Position numbers and translations under genes: made by a program. Positions 152 through 5,562 of a DNA stretch of 48,827 bases are shown here, piece by piece. Source of the DNA: Bacteroidota bacterium (GTDB lineage Bacteria > Bacteroidota > Bacteroidia > Bacteroidales > B39-G9); assembly GCA_015222055.1 (NCBI GenBank), contig JADFUR010000071.1:1-48827 (forward strand), written 5' to 3'. A model generated the notes under the pieces. That model did no database searches. It had not been told where the DNA came from and saw only the letters and a list, made by a program, of their open reading frames with translations. Position 1 is the first letter of the stretch; the number at the start of each line of letters is the position of its first letter.

Positions 152-493
152 TTATGATGCAATGTTTAATTCTATATTTTCTAACTCTACTATGAATTTA
201 ACATTTGCTTTAAGAGTTTTGAATATTCTCAGTACAGTACTTATAGTCATATTTCTGGCGTTTCTTTCCAGTTTAGATATTTCTGATTTTTTTACTCCAA
301 CCAATTCTCCTAATTGCTCTTGAGTCAGATTTCTTTCTTTCCGAGCTTTTTTTATCATCTCTCCCAATATGTCTAATTTTAGATCAAATTCATATTGTTC
401 TCTTTCATCTGTACCAAGCTCGCCAATATATTTATCCTTTAATTTATCAAAACTCTTAAATTTTATATCTTTTGTTCCCATATCAAAAATCAT
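152..493 (-). CDS. XRE-family helix-turn-helix antitoxin
   Basis: Probable antitoxin of a type II toxin-antitoxin pair, expected to bind the toxin and the operon promoter. The second half carries a Cro/C1-type helix-turn-helix (ARKERNLTQEQLGELVG followed by KSEISKLE); the first part (KDKYIGELGTDEREQYEF) is the extension usual in antitoxins paired with Gp49-like toxins. The frame is open from a TTG at 499, but ATGs at 493 and 481 are better starts; the one at 481 lies just after the toxin stop, so the two genes overlap or abut and are probably translationally coupled. The toxin gene comes first, the HigBA order. A terminator follows. Role by family resemblance; the specific family name is not certain. 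Confidence 0.85.
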   Translation of the reverse strand: MIFDMGTKDIKFKSFDKLKDKYIGELGTDEREQYEFDLKLDILGEMIKKARKERNLTQEQLGELVGVKKSEISKLERNARNMTISTVLRIFKTLKANVKFIVELENIELNIAS

Positions 494-821
494 TTTCAAA
501 GTAAATATGCCTTATTTTCATTGCTTTTTTAATCTCAGCTTTTAGTGTTTTTTGAGATTTCTTAACTATTCCATGTGTTGCTATTACCAATGTATGCTTA
601 TTGTCACTTTTATCCCAAAAAGCAAAAAGCCTGTATTGAATAGTATTGAATTTTGTTCTAAACACCCAGATTTCTTCAGTTAATTTTTTTAATAATTTTG
701 AATCAAGTGTAAGTTTTGCTTTATCAATATTGTAAAGGATTTTCCTTCTTGCTTTGTCATCTAAGCTGTCAAGAAATGTTTCAACTTCATCAGAATACAA
801 AATTCTAAAATATTCAAGCAT
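483..821 (-). CDS. RelE/HigB-type (Gp49-like) toxin
   Basis: Probable ribosome-dependent mRNA interferase of the RelE/HigB superfamily, phage Gp49-like branch. It is 112 residues, normal for the family. Recognisable elements are the N-terminal VETFLDSLDDKARRKIL, the core segment IWVFRTKFNTIQYRLFAFWD and the C-terminal HGIVKKSQKTLKAEIKKA, matching the family pattern of a basic strand, YRLFxxWD and HGFxKKxxKTPxxEI. It precedes and overlaps the antitoxin. A -7-like box (TACTTTTG on the minus strand, 846-853) lies about 25 bp upstream of the ATG, and a 29-bp repeat shared with two other minus-strand genes lies 85 bp upstream, which suggests the pair arrived as a mobile cassette. Confidence 0.87.
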   Translation of the reverse strand: MLEYFRILYSDEVETFLDSLDDKARRKILYNIDKAKLTLDSKLLKKLTEEIWVFRTKFNTIQYRLFAFWDKSDNKHTLVIATHGIVKKSQKTLKAEIKKAMKIRHIYFENDF

Positions 822-1921: not shown

Positions 1922-2719
1922 ATGAATATTAATTCAAAAAATTATTATGGTGATAATCGAATTACCACTGCATTACTTCTAGCTGCCGGAACAGGTAGTC
2001 GTCTTTACCCTTTAACCAAAAGCTCACCCAAATGTCTTACCCTTGTAAATGAAATATCAATTCTTGAAAGATTAGTAAATAATTTGAAAAAACAGGGTTT
2101 TACCCGACTTGTAATAGTTACAGGCTATGAAAAAGAATGCATCATGAATTTTTTGGGTAATAAATCGGGAAACTTAAACATTGAGTACATTAATAGTCCT
2201 CTTTACAGAACCACAAACAACATTTATTCTCTTTGGATGGCTCGCAATATAATAGACGAACCATTTGTTCTATTTGAAAGCGATTTGGTTTTAAACACAT
2301 CATTGCTTAACAAAATGGTTTACCCAGATAAAATGGCTGTTGCTTTAATGCAACCCTGGCTTAACGGTACAACTGTGTCGCTTAATAAACAAAATCAGGT
2401 TACTCATTTTCAAAAAGGAACAAGCAATAGCTATTCTGACATTCGTTATAAAACTGTTAATATATATAGCTTTTCGCGTTCATCATGGCGGGCAATTGTT
2501 AAAAAGCTCAATCAATATATTTCAGAAGGCAGTGTAAACTGTTATTATGAGGTCATTTTTTCTGAGATGATTGATGACAAAAGTTTGTCGCTTGAATCAG
2601 TTTCGTTCGACCATAAACCATGGTACGAGATTGATACTATTCATGATTTGGCTGAAGCAGAAAAACTTTTCCCTATCAAAATGAAAAAACATATTAAGAG
2701 AGAAAAAGCAATTGCATAG
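1922..2719 (+). CDS. Sugar-phosphate/phosphocholine-type nucleotidyltransferase (LicC-like)
   Basis: Predicted NTP transferase of the GT-A-like nucleotidyltransferase fold, probably a cytidylyltransferase activating a small phosphorylated alcohol or phosphonate. The signature ALLLAAGTGSRLYPLTKSSP at residues 17-36 holds the nucleotide-binding GxGxR loop and catalytic Lys region; FESDLVL near residue 118 supplies the metal-binding Asp; the NNIYSLWMAR segment and the C-terminal WYEIDTIHDLAEAEK are typical of LicC-like phosphocholine cytidylyltransferases. Length 265 is normal. It is the first gene of a three-gene operon (31 bp to the next start). Next to a CobD/HisC-like PLP enzyme and a CDP-alcohol phosphatidyltransferase, a CTP:phosphoethanolamine or aminoethylphosphonate role is the best inference; a sugar-1-phosphate substrate cannot be excluded. 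Confidence 0.8.
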   Translation: MNINSKNYYGDNRITTALLLAAGTGSRLYPLTKSSPKCLTLVNEISILERLVNNLKKQGFTRLVIVTGYEKECIMNFLGNKSGNLNIEYINSPLYRTTNNIYSLWMARNIIDEPFVLFESDLVLNTSLLNKMVYPDKMAVALMQPWLNGTTVSLNKQNQVTHFQKGTSNSYSDIRYKTVNIYSFSRSSWRAIVKKLNQYISEGSVNCYYEVIFSEMIDDKSLSLESVSFDHKPWYEIDTIHDLAEAEKLFPIKMKKHIKREKAIA

Positions 2720-2750
2720 TGGAATAGAATAAATAATTAATAAACGTATA

Positions 2751-3851
2751 ATGGAAAACAAATACAAAACACAAGCTGAGAAATACGAATACTTATCGAA
2801 ACAACATGGTGGTTATTACAGACATAATTTTACCGACCATTCTTACTTATATAATCTTTATTTTCCACCCAAAGCAGTGTTTACCCATCTTAAAAATAAT
2901 ATTCAAGATTTAGTATTGAATTACCCCGTAGCACAAGATGCACTTGACGAACTTATTGGGGAAATAATTAAGCAACCAGCCGAGAGAATAATTGTTGGAA
3001 ATGGTGCTGCCGAAATTATTAAAATACTTTCGGGGCATTTAGCTAAAAAAATAATTGTTCCTGTACCCTCATTTAATGAATATGCTAATGCTGCACCTAA
3101 AGGACATGCAATAGAATTCCCACTTGAATTTCCTTCATTTAAACTTGATGTAGACAAATTTGCAGCCGAGGCTATAAAAGTTGGAGCCGATATGGCTGTT
3201 GTGATAACACCCAATAATCCTACTTCGATGTTGGTGCCAAAAGCAGATATAATACGCTTGGCACAAAAGCTGGATAAACACAATTGCATGCTTATTGTTG
3301 ATGAATCATTTATTGATTTTGCTGAAAATAAAAAACAAACAAGCCTAGAACAAGACATTGATAAGTATCCAAATATGGCTATTTTAAAAAGCATGAGTAA
3401 GGCTTATGGAATATGTGGGCTTAGAATAGGATACATGTTAACGGCTAACCTTGAATTTGCCGCAGCAGTTAGAAACGGTATTCATATTTGGAATATTAAT
3501 GGATTTGCCGAAGAGTTTCTTCGAATATTACCCCAGTATAAACAAGAATTTGAAGCTAGTTGCGAAAAAGTTAAAACAGACCGGGATATGCTCTATAAAA
3601 ATTTGTGCACCATAAATGACATGACTGTTTTTAAACCTGATGCAAACTATATTTTTTGTCGTTTACCCGATACCGCTTTAAGTGGACCGGAAGTTACAAA
3701 GCGACTTTTTATTAAATATAATATTTATATAAAAGATAGTGTTGGAAAAACACAACCCGACGCCGATAGATATATTCGAATTGCAAGTCGCACCAATGAG
3801 GAAAACAATAAGCTTGTTGATGCCTTGAAGGATGTAATGTATTTAAAATAA
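2751..3851 (+). CDS. PLP-dependent class I/II aminotransferase (CobD/HisC-like)
   Basis: Fold-type I PLP enzyme of the histidinol-phosphate aminotransferase / threonine-phosphate decarboxylase group. Visible elements: HGG near residue 19, GNGAAEIIK, the TPNNPTS motif, IVDESFIDF with the pyridine-binding Asp (about D184), SMSKAYGICGLRIGY with the PLP Lys (about K217), and the C-terminal RYIRIASR with the phosphate-binding Arg. The HGG start, DESFIDF and RYxRxAxRxxxxN patterns resemble CobD more than a plain HisC. No histidine or cobalamin genes are adjacent; neighbours are a LicC-like transferase and a CDP-alcohol phosphatidyltransferase 5 bp downstream. Two roles fit: decarboxylation of O-phospho-serine to phosphoethanolamine, or a PntC-like aminoethylphosphonate transaminase. 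Family confident, substrate inferred. Confidence 0.85.
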   Translation: MENKYKTQAEKYEYLSKQHGGYYRHNFTDHSYLYNLYFPPKAVFTHLKNNIQDLVLNYPVAQDALDELIGEIIKQPAERIIVGNGAAEIIKILSGHLAKKIIVPVPSFNEYANAAPKGHAIEFPLEFPSFKLDVDKFAAEAIKVGADMAVVITPNNPTSMLVPKADIIRLAQKLDKHNCMLIVDESFIDFAENKKQTSLEQDIDKYPNMAILKSMSKAYGICGLRIGYMLTANLEFAAAVRNGIHIWNINGFAEEFLRILPQYKQEFEASCEKVKTDRDMLYKNLCTINDMTVFKPDANYIFCRLPDTALSGPEVTKRLFIKYNIYIKDSVGKTQPDADRYIRIASRTNEENNKLVDALKDVMYLK

Positions 3852-3856
3852 ACAAG

Positions 3857-4489
3857 ATGAATAACAAAAAACAGCCAGGCATGCTTACTTTTGCCAAAGA
3901 GTTACCAAATATTTGTTCCCTATTGGGATTGTTTAGTGCAGCAGCAGGAATCTATTTTGCAATAAAAGGAAATTTTCAGTTAGCAATTATTGGTGTGTTG
4001 TGGGCTGTATTATTCGATTGGTACGATGGAATTATAGCACGGAAAATGAAAGGCAGGACAAAAGTGCAAGGCGAATTCGGAGGGCAATTAGATTCCCTGA
4101 TTGACATTGTGAGCTTTGGTATTTTACCTGCGATTCTGCTTTTAAGCTATGGAAATTATGGTGTATGGTTTATACCCGGAGCATTTGTAATTATAGCCAC
4201 GGCTGCAATTCGTTTGAGTTATTTTAATGTATATGGTCTTATTAATAGCAATACATATAAGGGGCTTTCATTGGATAATAATGTACTCATTCTAGCTTTT
4301 GTCTTTTTATTTGAAGGTTTCTTCGAGCATTTTACTTTTTCTATAATTATTTATATAATACTAATGGTGCTATCAGCATTTAATTTATCATCAATATCAA
4401 CACCAAAATTTGCAGGAAAGTGGGTTTATGTGCTAGTAATATATGTAATTGTATTAACATCCATCTTTGGATGGATTCTGTATAATTGA
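3857..4489 (+). CDS. CDP-alcohol phosphatidyltransferase family membrane protein
   Basis: Integral membrane enzyme transferring a phospho-alcohol between CMP and a lipid or small alcohol. The family signature is complete: DWYDGIIAR, then GGQLDSLID, giving DxxDGxxAR...GxxxDxxxD at about residues 55-86. LDSLIDIVSFGILPA is close to phosphatidylserine synthases. About six hydrophobic segments are visible, including the last about 20 residues, for 210 residues. Only 5 bp separate it from the preceding PLP enzyme, so the genes are almost certainly cotranscribed. In this context it may join a CDP-activated amino-alcohol or aminophosphonate to diacylglycerol; ordinary PssA activity is the main alternative. 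Confidence 0.85.
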   Translation: MNNKKQPGMLTFAKELPNICSLLGLFSAAAGIYFAIKGNFQLAIIGVLWAVLFDWYDGIIARKMKGRTKVQGEFGGQLDSLIDIVSFGILPAILLLSYGNYGVWFIPGAFVIIATAAIRLSYFNVYGLINSNTYKGLSLDNNVLILAFVFLFEGFFEHFTFSIIIYIILMVLSAFNLSSISTPKFAGKWVYVLVIYVIVLTSIFGWILYN

Positions 4490-4632: not shown

Positions 4633-5562
4633 TTATGTGCTTTGGTTTCGATATTTTTTCTCTATTAATTTGACAAATCCATATACGAAATTATTTACTG
4701 GTGTGTCAATCCCGAGTTCCTTTCCGAATTTTACTACAGTACCATTTTGATATTCAATCTCTGATCGTTTTCCACTCAGCACATCCCGCGACAATGATGA
4801 CATTGAATTAGCAGGATAAGTATCTACACAAGCCAATGATTCTTCAACAATATCATTTTTAAGATTTATATTTTTAGCTTTAGCAATCATGCTTACCTCA
4901 GTCAATGAATCAATTATCATTTGTCTTGTTTCAGGTGTTTCTCTAATTAATCCATATCCAGAATTTGAGATGGTTCCAAATCCACTTAAACAAATTAAAA
5001 TAAACTTTCTCCATAATGCAGCTTCAATATCATCCGATAATGTGCAAGAAATACCAGCTTTTTCAAATAAAAGCTTTAATTGAGTTGTCCGTTTATTTAT
5101 TGTTTTATCAATTTCTCCAAATGTAATTGACGGGTCAAGCCCCATATGATTTATCACCCCGGGTGATTCAATACTACTAAAAATCATGCATAATCCTCCA
5201 ATTATTTGACTTTTATCAAAGCTCTGCAACAATTCATCTGCTGCTAACACTCCATTTTGTAGAGGCAGAATCATAGCATCTTTATTTAAAGTACCTGCTA
5301 ACTCCTTTGCAACGCCTTTTATCTGCCATGCTTTTGTCCCCAAAATAACCAATTCACAATCTGCCAATTCACTTAATCTATCAGTTGCAGTTGCCGGACA
5401 AATATTTATATCTCCTTTTATACTCTTTACCCTTAATCCATTTTCTTTGATATACTCTAAATGTTTCCCCCTAGCAATAAAGGTAAGCTGATTTCCGGAT
5501 GAAGCTAATCTTGCACCAAAGTATCCTCCAACTCCACCAGTTCCAATTATTCCAATTTTCAT
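4633..5562 (-). CDS. panE: 2-dehydropantoate 2-reductase (ketopantoate reductase, PanE/ApbA family)
   Basis: Predicted to reduce 2-dehydropantoate to pantoate with NADPH in pantothenate/CoA synthesis. The N-terminus MKIGIIGTGGVGGYFGARLA is the family Rossmann motif; LVILGTKAWQ follows, and LPLQNGVLAADELL matches the family LxNG motif. The C-terminal half has the helical pattern with the ALWRKFILICLSG segment, where the Lys is the expected catalytic residue, and MSSLSRDVLSGKRSEIEYQNG, which aligns with the family SMxxDxxxGRxTEIDxxNG stretch. Length 309 is usual. It is a lone gene, not beside other pan genes, bounded by an attC-like hairpin downstream and a 29-bp leader repeat 46 bp upstream, so it may be a mobile cassette copy. 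PanE-family proteins can act on other ketoacids. Confidence 0.88.
   Translation of the reverse strand: MKIGIIGTGGVGGYFGARLASSGNQLTFIARGKHLEYIKENGLRVKSIKGDINICPATATDRLSELADCELVILGTKAWQIKGVAKELAGTLNKDAMILPLQNGVLAADELLQSFDKSQIIGGLCMIFSSIESPGVINHMGLDPSITFGEIDKTINKRTTQLKLLFEKAGISCTLSDDIEAALWRKFILICLSGFGTISNSGYGLIRETPETRQMIIDSLTEVSMIAKAKNINLKNDIVEESLACVDTYPANSMSSLSRDVLSGKRSEIEYQNGTVVKFGKELGIDTPVNNFVYGFVKLIEKKYRNQST

Follow-up and report, generated by a model that had tools for sequence, protein, structure and literature searches.

An apparently mobile three-gene cassette of bacteria and methanogens: a probable route to CDP-ethanolamine and a possible one to serine-phosphoethanolamine

The window analysed here, positions 1-48,827 of contig JADFUR010000071.1 of a Bacteroidales genome (Bacteroidota; GCA_015222055.1), carries a row of three genes, P1, P2 and P3 (Table 1), which encode a cytidylyltransferase resembling LicC and PntC, a pyridoxal phosphate (PLP) enzyme resembling CobD and HisC, and a cytidine diphosphate (CDP)-alcohol transferase of the phosphatidylserine synthase (PSS) type. 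We tentatively propose, with somewhat less than even confidence in the account as a whole, that they form a mobile cassette that would make soluble serine-phosphoethanolamine from serine. P2 would convert O-phospho-L-serine to phosphoethanolamine and CO2, P1 would combine phosphoethanolamine with cytidine triphosphate (CTP) to give CDP-ethanolamine, and P3 would move phosphoethanolamine from CDP-ethanolamine onto the hydroxyl of L-serine, or of threonine or another close homologue. The resulting zwitterion would serve as a salt-protecting compatible solute, which in some lineages would be N-methylated or joined to an amino acid. All substrates and the product are assigned from families, residues, conservation and the absence of rival-pathway genes where these were searched for. 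The CDP-ethanolamine part, P2 with P1, is probable when taken alone; serine as the acceptor of P3 is a tentative assignment.

P1, P2 and P3 are real, intact genes in an operon-like arrangement, with gaps of 31 bp between P1 and P2 and 5 bp between P2 and P3. Each matches a Pfam family over cut-off: P1 NTP_transferase (PF00483), P2 Aminotran_1_2 (PF00155) and P3 CDP-OH_P_transf (PF01066). None of them reaches an NCBIfam cut-off among the families listed, which for P2 are the best 25 of 62. The labels and the order given for the three genes in the preliminary description agree with these scans and with the wider set of genomes described next.

Among 119 genomes searched, the source genome included, near copies of P1 occur in three: the source genome itself and two relatives at 79% and 77% identity, with P2 and P3 adjoining in each. 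When one genome of each species was scanned, at least 592 stretches matched, of which 575 were confirmed and the best 80 were kept as the loci counted throughout; these overlap the close relatives (L075 lies in genome G004, L150 in G055). The three genes stand side by side in the same order on one strand, often overlapping, in 67 of the 80 loci, and this recurrence argues that the shared order is not due to chance. Identity of P2 across the loci is 52-88%. Judged from their record titles, the carriers include Bacteroidales, Flavobacteriaceae, Desulfobacteraceae, Methanosarcina, Methanolobus, Pontiella, Planctomycetota and Chloroflexi; Carboxylicivirga marina, Saccharicrinis aurantiacus, Flavivirga rizhaonensis and Labilibaculum sp. 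K2S are cultured examples. Yet of 247 genomes sampled within the source order, only six have P3 (E-value at most 1e-40). Since the cassette spans several phyla and both domains while being so rare in its own order, its distribution suggests lateral transfer.

The best solved relatives of P1 are LicC (1jyk) and PntC-AEPT (6pd1), to which it is nearer than to IPCT. Glu119 and Glu210 of P1 align with Glu104 and Glu196 of Tde-PntC, which contact the amine of its substrate and whose equivalents in LicC are Asp105 and Asp192 (PMC6697681). The same paper cites earlier work in which LicC preferred phosphocholine over phosphoethanolamine 2700-fold (PMC6697681). In the comparison, which was made with Tde-PntC 6pd1, glutamate occupies both positions in 77 of 78 P1 sequences, eight of them from fusion proteins; the sole sequence lacking the pair is the fusion at locus L142. 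Because of this PntC-type pair, P1 likely acts on a small primary amine. Phosphoethanolamine and aminoethylphosphonate are near twins, so that the source of the amine decides the substrate of P1.

That source is presumably P2. A profile built from seven P2 relatives matched 6oux best (227.9 bits), followed by 3ftb (189.1 bits), CobD 1lc5 (152.3 bits) and HisC 1fg3 (95.4 bits). In NCBIfam, CobD (TIGR01140) came first with 184.6 of 290.55 bits and HisC (TIGR01141) second with 148.9 of 276.55 bits, both below cut-off. Lys217, within the motif SMSKAYG, is invariant in all seven alignment rows and presumably takes the place of the PLP-binding lysine of the family. SMUL_1544 reportedly decarboxylates O-phosphoserine. 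The molecule name of 6oux, 'threonine phosphate decarboxylase-like enzyme', is that of SMUL_1544 in the paper at PMC7755780, the link between the two being one of name only. For Cj1436, which is considered here for its reaction only, conversion of serine phosphate to ethanolamine phosphate is reported (PMC12409886). We propose that P2 is an O-phosphoserine decarboxylase, and the conversion of phosphoserine by way of phosphoethanolamine to CDP-ethanolamine, which the preliminary description had put forward, is still the best reading of P2 and P1 as judged from families and residues.

Two other views of P2 have to be weighed. It might be the histidinol-phosphate or threonine-phosphate enzyme of its genome, standing in the operon by chance, and it is in fact the best HisC-like match there (148.4 bits). 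We consider this the least probable of all the readings, since P2 is present in all of ten cassette genomes (in G230 as a 265-residue frame) while histidinol dehydrogenase occurs in only five of them, HisC over cut-off occurs in those same five, and the other five, the source genome among them, have neither. Of 19 cassette genomes four have CbiB, which the source genome lacks; this and the existence of P1-P2 fusions also argue against chance. Four of the ten genomes and 13 of the 19 were reached through the loci and come without a completeness figure. For the source genome, we rejected a HisC role for P2 (below cut-off, with no histidinol dehydrogenase and no HisC over cut-off found) and likewise a CobD role (below the TIGR01140 cut-off, with no CbiB found).

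The second view, which we regard as rather unlikely, changes the amine or the acceptor: P2 would act on threonine phosphate to form aminopropanol phosphate, or on dihydroxyacetone phosphate to form serinol phosphate, or else P3 would use some other small acceptor, for example glycerol. CobD and Cj1437, the latter related to P2 by family, carry out such reactions. Cj1437 is reported to make serinol phosphate (PMC12409886). Moreover, the arginine of the IxIR motif in both CobD 1lc5 and 6oux is lysine in all seven P2 rows, so that the pocket differs. Against this view, the best solved relative of P2 is 6oux rather than CobD, and a methyltransferase neighbour of the cassette (see below) points to phosphoethanolamine.

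The end of the proposed pathway depends on P3, which scores 73.4 of 107 bits against PssA (TIGR00473), below the curated cut-off. The predicted model (mean pLDDT, the predicted local distance difference test, 92.2) superposes on the phosphatidylserine synthase MjPSS (7b1k) with a Z score of 21.5 and a root-mean-square deviation of 1.9 over 176 residues, covering helices 1-7; the alignment stops at MjPSS residue 178 of 200, and helix 8 has no counterpart. Inositol-phosphate-type enzymes follow at Z 11-13 (4mnd 11.8). In a 45-row tree, 12 P3 rows form one group (support 98/100) among bacterial and archaeal PSS-like rows, although the nodes that place it are moderately supported (81/88 and 90/76), its stem is long (1.82 changes per column) and the program gives a long-branch warning.

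In MjPSS, Asp62, Ser63, Asp66 and Phe105 hold the serine, helices 5, 7 and 8 hold the alkyl chains, and CDP-diacylglycerol is kept in place with the help of the N terminus of helix 5 (PMC8633023). The P3 counterparts of D41, D44, D62, S63, D66 and R101 are kept in 71 of 71 sequences and that of F105 in 69 of 71. Other features are changed. Tyrosine takes the Arg/Lys104 position in 70 of 71, and G-x-x-x-D-N-N stands in place of GLPxPA, whose second proline is aspartate (Asp140 here) in 71 of 71 P3 sequences and proline in all nine PSS of the source order; N141 is found in 68 of 71. The CDP-alcohol motif has a spacer of 12 residues in 70 of 72 P3 rows, which lengthens the loop joining helices 2 and 3 by four residues, whereas the spacer is 7 or 8 in all 23 other family members that were read in ten cassette genomes (two of these members are identical); the two P3 rows that the motif expression missed have unknown residues in one case and AQ for AR in the other. 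Judged from its sequence and model, P3 is a derived PSS-type enzyme that has retained the serine site and departs from its relatives in a lipid-side motif, in the CDP loop and in the last helix. Because the serine contacts are conserved while the GLPxPA proline, Arg104, the loop and helix 8 are altered, the simplest account would be that the donor switched from CDP-diacylglycerol to CDP-ethanolamine with serine retained as acceptor. Asp140 may then face the ammonium group of the new donor.

The main rival to serine-phosphoethanolamine is a lipid product, made by a Kennedy-like route in which P3 would move phosphoethanolamine onto diacylglycerol, archaeol, ceramide or some other alcohol of lipid type and so form phosphatidylethanolamine or a special ethanolamine lipid. 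As a CDP-alcohol transferase, P3 has phospholipid enzymes among its relatives, and a neighbour resembling phosphoethanolamine methyltransferases would suit choline-type head groups. We nevertheless consider the route unlikely, though less so than a different amine. The model of P3 is far nearer to PSS than to the choline/ethanolamine phosphotransferases (Z 7.4-9.4; CEPT1 7.4), although a shared fold shows no function, and it is the lipid side of P3 that has changed. In addition, the source genome already holds a PssA-like gene on contig C89 and Psd-like genes on contigs C92 and C85, and Psd is present in 45 of 50 cassette genomes (one of which, G121, is the same as G004), so that phosphatidylethanolamine from the cassette would be mostly redundant. 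Further CDP-alcohol transferases are found in ten of ten cassette genomes. Among those that were read, PSS-like ones by motif label occur in nine of the genomes and none in G162, of which all matches but one were read. We rejected P3 as the only PssA of the source genome, where a separate PSS-like gene exists. The Psd-like matches on contig 85 are two, both additional to the one on contig 92, and one of the two is split into two pieces with an internal TGA. Diacylglycerol as acceptor, the end step of the preliminary description, thus fares less well than its first two steps: those are probably right, while ordinary phosphatidylethanolamine is the less favoured product on the present evidence.

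Several points weigh against a serine-phosphoethanolamine solute. Synthesis of this compound is the reaction of EC 2.7.8.4, which has a role in lombricine synthesis; we know of no sequence for EC 2.7.8.4, so there is none to compare with P3, and of no such metabolite in the carrier organisms. P3 is a membrane protein, as is natural for a lipid enzyme. Given the moderate support for its place among PSS-type enzymes and its long stem, P3 may do something else, the kept serine residues perhaps reflecting only ancestry, and the loss of helix 8 is seen in a predicted structure. P2, for its part, could use threonine phosphate instead. No Psd was found in 5 of the 50 cassette genomes, which could be incomplete or could make an ethanolamine lipid with the cassette. 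MjPSS is reported to accept both bacterial and archaeal lipid precursors (PMC8633023), so that the spread across the two domains, taken alone, would also suit a lipid product. At least one carrier, that of locus L142 (where P1 also lacks the glutamate pair), comes from groundwater, and the ATP-grasp-like neighbour that might join the product to an amino acid lies below the Pfam cut-off where scanned and has weak similarity to amino acid ligases. In favour of such a solute, fish lens and gill are reported to use serine- and threonine-phosphoethanolamine as osmolytes (PMC6918250). Serine-phosphoethanolamine is also reported in bird seminal plasma, where it has been proposed to be a lysophospholipase inhibitor (PMC7460616).

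A phosphonate route was also suggested in the preliminary description: P1 would be a PntC, the amine aminoethylphosphonate and the product of P3 a phosphonolipid. The PntC-type glutamates of P1 would suit it. The absence of PEP mutase and phosphonopyruvate decarboxylase from the window, noted at the time, has no bearing on the genome, where both PepM and Ppd are present on another contig; the genome search for pepM, ppd, pssA and psd found PepM, Ppd, PssA-like and Psd-like genes alike. However, PepM exceeds its cut-off in only 2 of the 50 cassette genomes (some match is found in eight), the third-best match falling just short of the cut-off with 310.5 of 319.55 bits; it belongs to the genome that carries L108, a locus with P1 and P2 and no P3. 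No PepM relative was found among the open reading frames of the 80 loci. We therefore rejected phosphonate supply as a general explanation of the cassette. In the source genome, PepM is fused to a CTP_transf_like domain and followed by Ppd, which is over its cut-off, and an iron alcohol dehydrogenase, among genes that appear by eye to be of glycan type. As PepM carries its own cytidylyltransferase domain, this cluster is set apart from the cassette and is probably a hydroxyethylphosphonate pathway with its own activation, serving a surface glycan. P2, moreover, matches the class I/II and not the class V aminotransferase family. Taken together, the phosphonate route is very improbable.

Families found in 3 or more of the 80 loci were counted as neighbours. 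A methyltransferase adjoins the cassette in 11 loci, on the opposite strand in three of them; by profile, four of its top five solved relatives are phosphoethanolamine or phosphomethylethanolamine N-methyltransferases. An ATP-grasp-like protein follows the cassette in 14 loci, as fragments only in L112 and L139, and a search of the Protein Data Bank with a profile of this family gave three weak matches. The two lists share no locus. Both neighbours fit an amine or amino acid product without proving it. Other neighbours are a metallophosphoesterase (eight loci, at varying distance; one was scanned), a class III aminotransferase (three loci) and a LicD group (three loci). We judged seven further groups (9, 4, 4, 3, 3, 3 and 3 loci) to have no relation to the cassette; as named by eye, they include sigma factors and proteins resembling sensor kinases or an efflux pump.

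The other 13 loci depart from the standard arrangement. In seven (L078, L079, L104, L117, L137, L145 and L148), P2 lies close to a contig end. L142, L146, L147 and L149 encode a single long P1-P2 protein of 607-639 residues. In L108 and L115, which lack P3, the P1 and P2 genes are followed instead by one for a class III aminotransferase, either whole or as a 202-residue piece; such an aminotransferase gene is also present at L146. Within the source order, four other genomes have fused P1-P2 proteins of 599-604 residues with 32-38% identity to each half. Near these lie genes for LicD, an octopine-dehydrogenase-like or mu-crystallin-like protein, or another CDP-alcohol transferase, and the fused proteins might make N-(carboxyalkyl)ethanolamine phosphate decorations. 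LicD is also near the fusions of L147 and L149 and near the cassette of L132. P1-P2 thus appears to be a module that provides a CDP-activated amine to different transferases. The complete cassette occurs twice in tandem in the assembly of one Methanosarcina metagenome-assembled genome (L107).

Apart from these genes, the window has a gene of the 2-dehydropantoate reductase family convergent with P3, which was not seen adjoining the cassette in G004 or G055, and a Gp49-like and helix-turn-helix protein pair that is likely a toxin-antitoxin module.

Table 1. Positions of the cassette genes, of residues discussed in the text and of other features
Feature	Location	Start-end	Strand	Remarks
P1	window	1922-2719	+	LicC/PntC-like cytidylyltransferase, 265 aa
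P1 Glu119 codon	window	2276-2278	+	codon checked
P1 Glu210 codon	window	2549-2551	+	codon checked
P2	window	2751-3851	+	CobD/HisC-like PLP enzyme, 366 aa
P2 Lys217 codon	window	3399-3401	+	codon checked
P3	window	3857-4489	+	CDP-alcohol transferase, PSS type, 210 aa; seven long helices in predicted model
P3 CDP-alcohol motif	window	4016-4105	+	DWYDGIIAR-x12-GGQLDSLID
P3 Asp140 codon	window	4274-4276	+	codon checked
2-Dehydropantoate-reductase-family gene	window	4633-5562
Gp49-like and helix-turn-helix pair	window	152-821	-
Fused cytidylyltransferase and CobD-like protein	L037	8195-10006
Fused cytidylyltransferase and CobD-like protein	L038	8988-10793
Fused cytidylyltransferase and CobD-like protein	L039	4761-6560
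Fused cytidylyltransferase and CobD-like protein	L040	7756-9570
PepM-Ppd-iron alcohol dehydrogenase cluster	source genome (G000), contig 29, L034	4033-7576
Extra Psd-like match	source genome, contig 85	25649-26249
Extra Psd-like match	source genome, contig 85	44751-45365
ATP-grasp-like protein	L085, L094, L098, L101, L112, L114, L118, L125, L134, L135, L138-L141

On a cautious reading, the cassette would represent a laterally spread route from phosphoserine to CDP-ethanolamine that is common to bacteria and methanogens and has no ethanolamine kinase gene of its own. With rather more reserve than for the account itself, we suggest that it may be an undescribed bacterial and archaeal pathway to a serine-phosphoethanolamine solute, with P3 as the first gene of its synthase. 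Within the open literature, judged by titles and the beginnings of abstracts and excluding subscription papers, we found no paper on the three-gene unit. If the proposal is true, it would supply a gene for serine-phosphoethanolamine synthase, an activity for which we know of none, enlarge the range of known microbial solutes by a phosphodiester and give an example of a phospholipid enzyme turned into a maker of small solutes. The analysis further distinguishes LicC-like genes that have CobD-like partners from genuine phosphonate genes.

The cassette can be compared with several known systems. The archaeal pair IPCT and DIPPS, found in hyperthermophiles, uses a CDP-alcohol to make a soluble solute, an inositol phosphodiester, and P1 with P3 would work in the same manner, by CTP activation of a small phosphate followed by transfer through a CDP-alcohol transferase in the membrane; the matches of the cassette proteins include NF041135 and 4mnd. 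The cassette differs in that P3 is nearer to PSS than to 4mnd, that P1 is nearer to LicC and PntC, and that a PLP decarboxylase-like enzyme, P2, would supply the substrate. PntC and LicC are the best solved relatives of P1, and PntC also shares its glutamate pair, whereas the partner of P1 is the CobD-like P2 instead of a class V aminoethylphosphonate transaminase and the loci have no PepM relative. Set against the CobD-family decarboxylases (SMUL_1544, Cj1436 and CobD), P2 is closest to 6oux among solved structures, but falls below the CobD cut-off in a genome without CbiB, and lies beside, or is fused to, a cytidylyltransferase. With the eukaryotic Kennedy pathway the cassette would share CDP-ethanolamine as activated intermediate; its phosphoethanolamine would come from phosphoserine and not from a kinase, and the closest fold to P3 is PSS and not CEPT1. 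Finally, P3 shares with MjPSS the fold of helices 1-7 and the serine contacts, and differs from it in the longer spacer, the tyrosine at Arg104, the G-x-x-x-D-N-N sequence, the absence of helix 8 from the model and the position of its gene next to P1 and P2.

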